Assembly: GCA_020063625.1 (NCBI GenBank)
Contig: JAICDD010000015.1
Location: forward strand, 1-64,000
DNA from: Fusobacteriales bacterium
GTDB lineage: Bacteria > Fusobacteriota > Fusobacteriia > Fusobacteriales > Fusobacteriaceae
Direction: 5' to 3'
DNA length: 64,000 nucleotides
Shown: piece after piece, positions 3,241 through 8,841 of the stretch
Layout: every line of letters begins with the position of its first letter
Position numbering within the stretch: the stretch's first letter is position 1
The notes under the pieces: model-generated
What the model was told of the DNA's origin: nothing
The model's database searches: none
The model's input: only the letters and a program-made list of their open reading frames with translations
Translations under genes and position numbers: made by a program

Positions 3241-3289
3241 TTTATTCCTTTCTTTAATTAGTTATAAATTATATAAATGAACTTTAATT

Positions 3290-3765
3290 TTAAAATCTCA
3301 GCACGAAGACACAAAGATTTTTTAGAAACCACGGGATTCACACGAGATATCTTGATCACGAATTACACGAATGAACTCGAATTTTTTGTTACACAAAGAG
3401 CACGAAGAAAATCAATAAGGGCCACAAAGGAAGGTTGCCATAGATTTAGAAACCACAGGATATTCACAAGATGCACACAGAATTTTATCTAGAGTTTATC
3501 GGTGTTAATCTCGTGGTTCCTAGTTTTTCTTTATGGTTCTGTTTTTTTATCTTTGTGTTCTTCGTGTAACGCATTTATCAAGAAAATCTAATATCCTTCG
3601 AAAATGCGCTGCAACTATCTTTTTTATCTTGTGTTTATCTGTGCAAATCCTGTGGTTCCCTAGTTTTTCTTTGTGGTTCTTTTTTTTCTCTTTGTGGTAC
3701 TTTGTGTTCTCTTTTCTTTGTGCTAAATTCAATCAGTGAAAATCCGTGTTTTTCCGCGGCTAAAT
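3290..3765. repeat. Cluster of modular dispersed repeats (first cluster)
   Basis: This gap after the radical SAM gene holds no credible gene. It contains short related blocks. GTGGTTCC-ending units on the plus strand (about 3488-3520 and 3632-3660) face inverted copies beginning AAACCAC (3328-3352, 3450-3482). CACAAAG/CACGAAG units occur in both orientations. A 59-base module lies at 3551-3609, and a CCGCGGCTAA end module at 3741-3774. The left half carries the inverted orientation and the right half the direct one. Open frames across it are only translations of the repeat. Confidence 0.85.
3551..3609. repeat. 59-base hairpin module, copy 1
   Basis: This stretch matches 8437-8495 at 57 of 59 positions by eye. 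Its right part is a potential hairpin: CGCATTT at 3570-3576 is complementary to AAATGCG at 3602-3608. It lies inside the first repeat cluster. Confidence 0.85.
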
Positions 3766-3894
3766 TTAATTATTCTCACTGCTCACTTCATCACTATTTT
3801 TTAGTTTTTCCAATATATTTTCTTTTGTATAATTTTCATTATCAAGTTGTATTTCCAGTGCTTTATTAAGAATATTTTTTAAAGTTTTATTGGG
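3766..3894 (-). pseudogene. Out-of-frame C-terminal remnant of the CCA-adding enzyme
   Basis: Immediately past the stop of the DHH-CBS-CCA gene, a different frame reads on for 42 codons. It contains KTLKNILNKALEIQLDN and YTKENILEKL, which resemble the conserved end of this nucleotidyltransferase subfamily (the block where an IL...LL...LDG...TKE pattern is usual). The usual G-x-DL-x(4)-G segment expected between the two parts is absent, so a small out-of-frame deletion is likelier than a single-base error. The last residues (DEVSSENN) come from repeat-like sequence, GTGAGCAGTGAG followed by AATAATTAA. Confidence 0.7.
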
Positions 3895-6316
3895 AAATAT
3901 CTTTTAATTTATTTAAATAAATATCTATTTTATTTTCAATTTCAGGATAAGCATATTTTATCAGATAAATGATTTCTAATGGAATATTTTTTAATAAAAA
4001 ATATATTTCAGAATTTTTATTTAAATATCTTAATTTTTCTGCAATGTTTCTTCGTTCATTAATTCCAATAGAAATTTTTTTAATAAATTTGTTTTTAAAT
4101 CCAAATCTATGAAAAATAGTTTTTAAATCTTTGGTATCGAGCCTTCTAAATAAAGTAATTAATAAAATTTGCCAAGGTTCAATATTATTTTTAATAATTT
4201 CATTTTTATTTTTTAAAACTTTATTAAAAATAGTATAAGTTGAAGAAGTAATATTTATATTTAAATTCAATTTTTCAAAAATATTATATTTTTCAAACAG
4301 TTTTAATGCTTTATTTGGTTTTTTATCTTTTAAAATTTTAATAATTTCATTTTTTAATCTATCAAAACTTATTTTATTTAAAAAACCTTCTTGGATAGCT
4401 TGGATTAAAAATTTTTCAGTATCTTTTTCTAAAGAAAAATCAAATCTTGAAGCAAATCTAATAGCTCTAATTATTCTAGTAGGGTCTTCTATAAAGCTTA
4501 AGTTATGCAATATTTTTATTTTTTTATTAATTAAATCATGATATCCATTATAATAATCAATAAGTTTTCCAAAATTATTATAATCTATTTCAAGAGCCAT
4601 AGCATTTATAGTAAAATCTCTTCGATAAAGGTCTTTATCTATACTACTATATGATACAGTGGGTAATGAAGTTGGATATTCATAATATTCTAAACGACTA
4701 CTAGCCAAATCTATATTTAACCCATTTTCTAAAAATAAAATAGCTGTTTTAAACTTTTCATGAGTTATTATTTTTTTTATATTTAAAACAGTGATTAAAT
4801 CTTTTGAAAATTGTATAGCATCTCCTTCAATAACTATATCAATATCAAAATTTTCTATATTTAATATTAAATCTCTTACAATACCACCTACAAGATATGC
4901 TTTTTCATTTCTAATTTTTGAGATGTTTTCAATAGCAGTGAAAATATCTAATATTTTTTTTGGAAATTTATTTAATAAATTATTATCAATAATAGTAGGA
5001 TTTATTTCTGAAGGTTTTTTTAAGACAAATTTTTGTTCATATAAATTTCTTAAAATATCAGTACGAGTAACAATGCCTATTAATCTATTATTTTCTATAA
5101 TGGGTACTCTTCCAATCTCATTTTCAATAATAATTTTTTTTAATTCTTCAATAGAAGTATTTGGAGAAGCACAAATTATGTTCGAACTCATATATGCTTT
5201 AACAGGGGCATTTGAAAATCCATGATGTATAGCTTTATCAATGTCTCTTCGAGAAATAATTCCAATTGGAATATCATTATCAACAACGGGAATCCCACTA
5301 TAACCAAAATATATCATTGTTTTATGTACATCTTTTATTTTAGTATCAGGTTTTATATATTTTACAGGAGTACTCATTATATATTTAGCTATTTTATTTT
5401 CAGGAATATAATTAAAAATCTCATTTTTTAAATTTAGAAAAACTTCATTAATATCAATATCTCTTAAAAATGCAGAAGCAGCTTCAGGATGTCCACCACC
5501 ATTAAATTTATTTAAAATTTTATTTAATTTAATTGACTTTGAGGTACTTCTAGCTATTATTGAAATATTATTACTATAAGAATAAAGTAAAAAGCAAGCA
5601 TCACAGTCTTTTATATCCATTATCTTATTAGCAATAATATCAAGATTTTTATGAAATTTGCTACCTACAATTTTAGTAATAAAAATTTTATGAGAATAGT
5701 GATTAATTGTCTCACCTAAGTTTAAAAAATTTAAAAATATTTCTAGTTCATTAGTTTTTAAATTTTTATTAACAAACTCTAATACCATTTCAAGATTTGC
5801 TCCAAATTCTAATAATTTTGAAGCAAAATACATGTCTTTAGATGTTGTATTTTTAAAGGTGAAATTACCAGTATCTTCATATATCCCCATAAGTGCAATT
5901 GTTGCTTCATAGTCAGATAGATTTAAATTTTTTTCAAAAATGTATTTTAAAATATTTGATGAATTAGAACCAATAATATTTTTAAAAATTTTTCCTTTTT
6001 TAATATCATTTTCATTTGAAGAATGATGGTCATAAATTATTATTTCTACATTCTCTTTATGTATAATGTTTTTAAAATTTCCAATTCTATTTATATTTGA
6101 TGTATCTACTATTATTAATTTTGTAATTTTTTCTAAATCAATATCACTAATTCTTTGGATATTTAATATATCTTGATATAGATTAGCAACCTCTTTTACA
6201 TTTTTTGAAATATTTCCAGAAAATACAAGTTTTGCATTTGGATATAATTTTTTAGCAAGAATCATAGACGCAAAACCATCTAAATCAAGATGAATATGAC
6301 TTGTAATAATTTCCAT
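3887..6316 (-). CDS. DHH-CBS-CCA tRNA nucleotidyltransferase, truncated at C-terminus
   Basis: A three-part protein of 809 residues. Residues about 1-300 form a DHH/DHHA1 phosphoesterase domain (HLDLDGFAS, IIVDTS, IIIYDHH, and GGGHPEAASAF in DHHA1). Residues about 310-430 hold two CBS domains. The rest is a class II CCA-adding/poly(A) polymerase head with AYLVGGIVRDLIL (GGxxRD), DFTINAMAL and DPTRIIRAIRF, plus the carboxylate pair in FDIDIVIEGD. Proteins of this architecture add or repair the tRNA 3' CCA end; the DHH part may be a nuclease and the CBS pair may bind nucleotides. The frame stops early relative to the family, and matching sequence continues out of frame beyond the stop. A GAAGGAG ribosome site supports the start. 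The Nudix gene ends 3 bases upstream, so it is probably cotranscribed. Confidence 0.9.
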   Translation of the reverse strand: MEIITSHIHLDLDGFASMILAKKLYPNAKLVFSGNISKNVKEVANLYQDILNIQRISDIDLEKITKLIIVDTSNINRIGNFKNIIHKENVEIIIYDHHSSNENDIKKGKIFKNIIGSNSSNILKYIFEKNLNLSDYEATIALMGIYEDTGNFTFKNTTSKDMYFASKLLEFGANLEMVLEFVNKNLKTNELEIFLNFLNLGETINHYSHKIFITKIVGSKFHKNLDIIANKIMDIKDCDACFLLYSYSNNISIIARSTSKSIKLNKILNKFNGGGHPEAASAFLRDIDINEVFLNLKNEIFNYIPENKIAKYIMSTPVKYIKPDTKIKDVHKTMIYFGYSGIPVVDNDIPIGIISRRDIDKAIHHGFSNAPVKAYMSSNIICASPNTSIEELKKIIIENEIGRVPIIENNRLIGIVTRTDILRNLYEQKFVLKKPSEINPTIIDNNLLNKFPKKILDIFTAIENISKIRNEKAYLVGGIVRDLILNIENFDIDIVIEGDAIQFSKDLITVLNIKKIITHEKFKTAILFLENGLNIDLASSRLEYYEYPTSLPTVSYSSIDKDLYRRDFTINAMALEIDYNNFGKLIDYYNGYHDLINKKIKILHNLSFIEDPTRIIRAIRFASRFDFSLEKDTEKFLIQAIQEGFLNKISFDRLKNEIIKILKDKKPNKALKLFEKYNIFEKLNLNINITSSTYTIFNKVLKNKNEIIKNNIEPWQILLITLFRRLDTKDLKTIFHRFGFKNKFIKKISIGINERRNIAEKLRYLNKNSEIYFLLKNIPLEIIYLIKYAYPEIENKIDIYLNKLKDISQ

Positions 6317-8025: not shown

Positions 8026-8310
8026 ATATATTACCTCCAATTTTTTTAGTTACACAAAGAGCACGAGAAAACCACTAAGAACCACTAAGAAGTTTTGAAA
8101 CCACTAGATACACACGGGATGTTCACCAAATAAATTAATTTTTTCTCCTGTGTTTATCAGTGTCAATCTCGTGGTTCCAATTCTTTTATCTTTGCGATAC
8201 TTTGTGTTCTCTTTTCTTCGTGCTAAATTAAATCCGTGTTTTTCCGTGGCTAAATTCTAATTTTTCCATTACTTACTTTTCACTAATTTATCATTGTCAA
8301 TTTTTTTTAT

Positions 8311-8368
8311 TTCGCCTTTGGCGACTTACTTTTTTAAAGACAAAAAAGTAAGCAAAAAGTCTTTGCGC
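8311..8368. repeat. Three-hairpin element
   Basis: Three adjacent inverted repeats: CGCC-TTT-GGCG at 8313-8323, CTTACTTTTTT (8325-8335) with AAAAAAGTAAG (8342-8352), and GCAAA (8352-8356) with TTTGC (8362-8366). The block has a higher GC patch than its surroundings and only one copy in the window. It resembles a kind of dispersed palindromic element seen in other genomes, but the family name cannot be given from sequence alone. Confidence 0.6.
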
Positions 8369-8436
8369 TAGTTTCTACGGATATTGATTTTCTATAACTC
8401 ATTCGCGCGTTTTATCTCTTCTTACTATTTTTTTCT

Positions 8437-8495
8437 CTTTGTGTTCTTCGTGTAACGCATTTATCAAGAAAATCTAATATCCTCTGAAAATGCGC
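8437..8495. repeat. 59-base hairpin module, copy 2
   Basis: Matches 3551-3609 with two substitutions in 59 positions, in the same orientation. The inner CGCATTT and AAATGCG arms are conserved. Confidence 0.85.
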
Positions 8496-8841
8496 CTTTT
8501 TATTTAATTCTTAATTTTTCTCTCATTAATCTCTTTTAGTCTATATTTTATTCTGTGTTCATCTGTGGCAATCCTGTGGTTCCAGTTTTCCTATCTTTGT
8601 GTTACTTTGTGCCCTCTTTTCTTTGTGCTGAAAAATTCGCGTTTTCCCGCGGCTAATTTTAATTATCAATTTTTTTATCTTGTACTCATCTGTGTGTATT
8701 TGGTGGTTCCAATTATCTTTTAAATTCTTCTCACTCTTTACTTCTCACTATTTTCCCATTGTCAATTATTAATTTCTTTTATTCTTTAATATAATAACAT
8801 TTTAATGTATATTTTGTATAGAATATTTTAAATAAGCTTTC

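Follow-up and report, generated by a model that had tools for sequence, protein, structure and literature searches.

The stretch of DNA analysed here (the window) comprises 64,000 nucleotides of a Fusobacteriales bacterium (assembly GCA_020063625.1, contig JAICDD010000015.1, positions 1 to 64,000, forward strand), and its positions 3887–6316 hold a gene predicted to encode a DHH-CBS class II transfer RNA (tRNA) nucleotidyltransferase, the kind of enzyme that adds A (or CCA) to the 3' ends of tRNA. This gene carries a net deletion of 44 bases that changes the reading frame; the deletion, its size and the frame change are observed in the window, and all 14 full-length relatives are without them. 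It is likely that the loss is tolerated through the CCA encoded in the tRNA genes and that the predicted activity of the truncated enzyme is weakened or altered. As a truncation specific to one lineage, the case is ordinary; it holds some interest for the loss of tails in tRNA repair enzymes. The features concerned are as follows.

3887–6316, minus strand: truncated gene, 809 amino acids, with DHH, DHHA1, two CBS stretches, PolyA_pol head and PolyA_pol_RNAbd (domain profile searches and 85% identity to the relative G001)
3880–3895, minus strand: deletion scar, 16 bases against 60 in 14 of 14 relatives (spacing comparison between anchors)
3887–3889, minus strand: premature stop TAA after two new residues, S and Q (sequence reading)
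3769–3894, minus strand: remnant of the old 3' end, open in the +1 frame for 42 codons, with its stop at 3766–3768 (60% identity with G001 over 30 codons)

Truncation of the Gene and Change of Frame

The search for the long-form gene covered 61 genomes, namely that of the window (G000) and 60 relatives, among which G001 is the only other genome of the same genus; no second strain was found for comparison among these two. Fourteen other full-length long-form genes were found, with open frames of 856–880 codons, and the closest, in G001, encodes 858 amino acids and is 85% identical over 807 residues. From the codon of Ile807 to the KNIL anchor there are exactly 20 codons in all 14 relatives and 16 bases in the window, a net loss of 44 bases that is out of frame. 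Compared with G001, the window protein has lost 51 C-terminal residues and gained two (SQ) before the stop. The remnant in the +1 frame (3769–3894) reads PNKTLKNILNKALEIQLDNENYTKENILEKLKNSDEVSSENN; the counterpart of its tail in G001, KNIIKHALELQLDNENYTIKEILKEL, stands in frame, as do the equivalents in the 13 more distant relatives. The DNA beyond the stop matches G001 at 3814–3881 (84% over 68 bases, E value 1.5e-14), a match that exceeds chance, and the remnant aligns with the G001 tail in register. An earlier note on this DNA had claimed that the C-terminus was lost, that family-like sequence continues in the +1 frame after the stop at 3887–3889, and that a deletion of some tens of bases with a frame change had cut about 40 to 60 residues; all of this is borne out by G001 and the 13 other relatives. 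Relatives ending at the same point were also sought, and none of the 14 does so; three enzymes from another genus end even earlier.

The segment lost in the window holds a G-x-D-L-x(3)-G motif, which is exact in 10 of the 14 relatives, with the D kept in 12. Its absence from the window had been correctly noticed, but the spacing had been given as x(4). G001 itself reads GKILLKNG at this site, where the D is already gone. G001 also carries a 14-base direct repeat, with copies 43 bases apart, that spans the deleted segment; it is likely a weak spot, though 43 is one base off the observed 44. The 16 bases that remain at the scar resemble both flanking sides of the G001 segment, 5' and 3', to the same degree (9/16 each, by eye), so the exact ends of the deletion cannot be fixed. 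Synteny with G001 is conserved on both sides of the gene, with flanks 85–91% identical at the DNA level. A further candidate homologue, locus L032, was dropped as remote, with 27% identity over query residues 138–281 only.

Domain Structure and Predicted Activity

The class II tRNA nucleotidyltransferase module starts at about residue 441 of the 809-residue protein. It comprises a PolyA_pol head (PF01743, 92.0 bits against a cut-off of 23) and an RNA-binding neck (PF12627, 32.2 bits against a cut-off of 22), both above the Pfam cut-offs, while the body and tail are incomplete, since the 51 C-terminal residues present in G001 are gone. The motifs VGGIVRD, DID, RRDFTINA and EDPTR, which we take to be the catalytic motifs of the head, are all kept; because they are intact, the truncated protein probably retains some activity, in a weakened or altered form. 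Of the gene, 807 codons remain open, and the ratio of nonsynonymous to synonymous substitution rates (dN/dS) against G001 is 0.14. The sequence does not tell A addition from CCA addition.

tRNA Genes and the Need for the Enzyme

In the assembly of the window genome 24 tRNA genes were detected, and CCA is encoded directly after every one of them. Similarly, CCA is encoded in 25 of the 25 distinct tRNA genes read in G001 (loci from 15 of 61 places) and in 33 of the 33 read in G019 (loci from 30 of 41 places), a genome to which we return below. With CCA encoded in every tRNA gene detected, repair would be all that the enzyme is needed for. It has been reported in PMC11784652 that Escherichia coli strains without cca are in use and that, even with encoded CCA, enzymes of this kind are retained for repair and for quality control. 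The description of the enzyme as tRNA-essential in the earlier note does not hold against these genes and strains, and the idea of a broken essential enzyme is to be corrected: with tRNA genes that encode CCA, the enzyme serves repair and the tail may go. The loss of the tail is thus probably tolerable and fairly ordinary.

The explanation preferred here is that a net 44-base deletion in the lineage of this genome removed the G-x-DL segment and shifted the frame; the protein would now end 51 residues early, within the C-terminal region, the tail of which touches the elbow of the tRNA in related enzymes, and the deletion would be tolerated with CCA encoded by the tRNA genes and the enzyme used only for repair.

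Age of the Deletion and Constraint on the Tail

Several observations weigh against this explanation. Between the window and G001, dN/dS is 0.83 in 31 tail codons and 0.14 in the body (Fisher p = 0.002), the highest tail value among the nine pairs compared, a further pair having yielded none, and the one off-frame reading of the remnant that was made gave a lower value, 0.30. No constraint on the remnant is seen in its own frame between the window species and G001, and an older deletion would give the same result. The tail is also significantly faster than the body in two of eight other pairs, which are not independent of one another. At the 13 tail differences that could be polarised against the 13 other relatives, the commoner residue is kept by the window at 8 and by G001 at 5, a lean in favour of the explanation that is not significant (binomial p = 0.58); over the body it is kept by the window at 34 and by G001 at 63, with 24 ties, and the difference in polarisation between the tail and the nucleotidyltransferase body is not significant (p = 0.11). 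With 24 tRNA genes in the incomplete assembly and 61 in G001, the assembly may lack some that do not encode CCA, and the species is represented by one genome, as an assembly only, so a fault of assembly or a mixture of strains is possible.

Decay of the remnant was considered as the source of the high tail ratio and is not supported by the polarisation. The remnant does not look clearly decayed, and the G001 tail itself appears to have drifted (GKIL for GxDL). The remnant has no stop and still resembles the family, which inclines us weakly to the view that the deletion is recent and that the tail was under little constraint. Over the body as a whole, the window lineage has changed more often than that of G001 (63 to 34); this gene alone was compared, and the excess may be genome-wide.

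Second Nucleotidyltransferase and the Possible CC-Adding Partner

A second PolyA_pol gene is present in 11 of the 15 genomes with the long form, including G001, where it lies on contig 11 (L033:2296–3519) and encodes about 390 amino acids from the likely ATG. Where the window protein has a longer loop, the G001 second enzyme has a short stretch from IEIS to RRDF (by eye). A loss of this loop has been described for bacterial CC-adding enzymes in PMC7014341, and the short stretch resembles it, so the G001 second enzyme looks CC-adding-like. It also seems, by eye, to be without the HD-like stretch (HPEGDVFTHT...HDIGK) carried by its counterparts in ten other genomes.

The earlier note had asked for a second enzyme in the window genome. 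None was found in this assembly, which shows a single PolyA_pol gene, but the assembly seems to lack the whole region of the G001 partner. The partner used as query matched only the window gene (33% identity), and the deoxynucleoside kinase gene adjoining it in G001 had no match. Searches with 8 kb and 20 kb around the partner gave, among the matches listed (the best 40 of 701 and 40 of 611 candidates), none longer than about 200 bases; these searches had no positive control, though the 85–91% identity of the window flanks should be detectable. The 20 kb include a glutamine-synthetase-like gene and other core-looking genes (named by eye). A gap of at least 20 kb in the assembly seems to account for the missing partner, whose absence says little as evidence, and the absence of a gene from this assembly is not to be trusted.

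Tail-Less Relatives in Genus g7

The three enzymes that end even earlier belong to G019, G028 and G035 (loci L101, L102 and L103) of genus g7. Each is the only PolyA_pol enzyme found in its genome, has 326–342 open codons and stops short of the tail region. Genus g7 also includes G007, whose single enzyme is complete at 441 codons. Downstream of the three short genes, 300 bases read in all three frames showed no tail-like remnant. Like the window enzyme, they come from the same bacterial family and have a class II head and neck without the G-x-DL tail; no second PolyA_pol gene accompanies them, and none was found in the incomplete assembly of the window genome. Unlike the window enzyme, they have no DHH-CBS part in the open frame. 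The two distinct end points suggest that the tail was probably lost at least twice in this family. Among the titles listed by narrow literature searches, none concerns tail-less enzymes of this kind in this group. With the window gene and these three enzymes, nature supplies cases in which to ask how long a tail class II enzymes require and whether A-only specificity depends on the tail.

Assembly Quality and Alternative Explanations

The quality of the sequence was judged from other gene pairs of the window and G001 within 1–39.7 kb. G001 frames of at least 100 amino acids matching the window at 60% identity or more were compared (32 frames; only matching frames are included), and six were flagged: the tRNA enzyme, one antisense frame (left out of the gene count, which gives 31 genes), two pairs whose match begins 13 or 14 residues past the G001 start, one variable linker that keeps the frame and one stop that precedes a later start. 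All 30 other pairs are without a break, i.e., 30 of the 31 genes are intact.

An artefact of assembly or population, in which the recorded sequence would be that of a minority variant, or of a short AT-rich stretch wrongly assembled, while most cells carry the intact gene, is distinctly unlikely. It would agree with the draft state of the assembly (56 contigs, 93.6% complete), with a remnant that is still stop-free, and with the 14-base direct repeat of G001, whose copies 43 bases apart could plausibly have led to slippage in vivo or to assembly collapse; however, a collapse of 43 bases alone misses the observed length, a loss of 44 bases is of unusual size for a sequencing error and is not a usual base-calling error, and sequencing noise is unlikely because the 30 other gene pairs show no frameshift or internal stop. 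The same deletion could also have left the whole gene a pseudogene with an unstable or inactive protein, a reading that differs in the fate of the protein only and that we regard as possible, though unlikely. The loss of 51 C-terminal residues and a remnant without visible constraint against G001 speak for it, as does the nucleotidyltransferase part, which has changed more in the window lineage than in that of G001 (34 to 17 polarised sites, binomial p = 0.02); but the DHH-CBS part shows a similar lean (29 to 17, p = 0.10), so the faster change is not peculiar to the half that was damaged. The 807 open codons and the dN/dS of 0.14 also speak against a pseudogene, although these would mostly record the history before the deletion if it is recent, and shorter natural enzymes persist in G019, G028 and G035.

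Programmed frameshifting that joins both frames deserves almost no credence: the +1 frame is open for 42 codons, but the joined product would still be without about 15 residues, including G-x-DL, and a single open frame is found in 14 of 14 relatives. To our knowledge, TCC-CAA-TAA resembles no slippery site. Another reading holds that the loss of the tail turned an A-adding into a CCA-adding enzyme, so that a CC-adding partner was no longer needed; we think this very improbable. A comparable effect has been reported in the literature, including PMC7014341, a second gene is found in G001 and not in the window genome, and the three tail-less enzymes of genus g7 also stand alone. However, the missing partner is best explained by the assembly gap; G010, G021 and G037 with the full-length form and G007 with a complete enzyme are all without a partner, so solitude needs no truncation; and a general role of the C-terminal region in specificity is doubted in a published review. 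The broader form of the same idea, that tail loss is a recurrent route in this family by which a nucleotidyltransferase freed from essential CCA synthesis drops its tRNA ruler, with an A-adder gaining CC addition here, has equally little chance of being right; if true, it would be nature's counterpart to an experiment reported in vitro.

Repeat Cluster beside the Gene

3277–3787, strand not assigned: cluster of CACAAAGA/ACCACGGGATT-type repeats adjoining the 3' end of the gene (repeat comparisons; borders approximate)

The presence of a repeat cluster next to the gene, as in the earlier note, is confirmed: about 500 bases of repeats lie between the gene and the next downstream gene, where G001 has 175 bases in all. 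A link of the cluster with the deletion is not supported, since the repeat similarity ends at 3771–3787, about 90–110 bases from the scar, in seven of the eight copies compared, and at 3809 in the other; nothing in these eight copies ties the cluster to the deletion. The repeat includes the stop of the +1 frame, and similarity to G001 resumes at 3814; thus, an insertion seems to have replaced the last few codons of the gene. The ACCACGGGATT/CACAAAGA family is also found at 8035–8666 and 1–36 of the window. It has at least 125 matches in this genome and one in G001 (best 40 of 201 and 40 of 60 candidates). It matches 7 of the 41 genomes searched; outside the window genome, most of these matches involve a core some 45 bases long (at most 15 candidates were scored in each genome). 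The family has undergone a large expansion in one species.

Comparison with Known Systems

The nearest named family is the A-adding enzyme NF041569 (NCBIfam), whose domain order is the same as that of the window protein and whose profile is matched from position 1 to 827 of 880 (E value 2.3e-164), where the window protein stops. The score of 549 bits is yet far below the curated cut-off of 1440, and the intact G001 protein (579 bits) also lies under it, so the truncation is not the cause of this shortfall. The name "CCA-adding" given earlier is accordingly not established, the closest named family being A-adding with its cut-off unreached. Among solved structures, the module aligns with residues 4–362 of the 410-residue chain 4wby, which has 48 further residues of its own; 4wby, 1vfg and 4wbz carry the PDB name poly A polymerase and are presumably the Aquifex aeolicus A-adding enzyme. 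The top match is the tRNA nucleotidyltransferase 3h37 (E value 2e-71, chain residues 11–372), which is grouped with 3h38, 3h39, 3h3a and 5hc9 as tRNA nucleotidyltransferase structures, all of which we take to be the Thermotoga maritima CCA-adding enzyme. The window protein ends where residue 372 of 3h37 aligns, and 3h37 runs on for 69 residues to 441. In related enzymes, according to PMC4810234, the tail domains gauge how far away the tRNA elbow lies.
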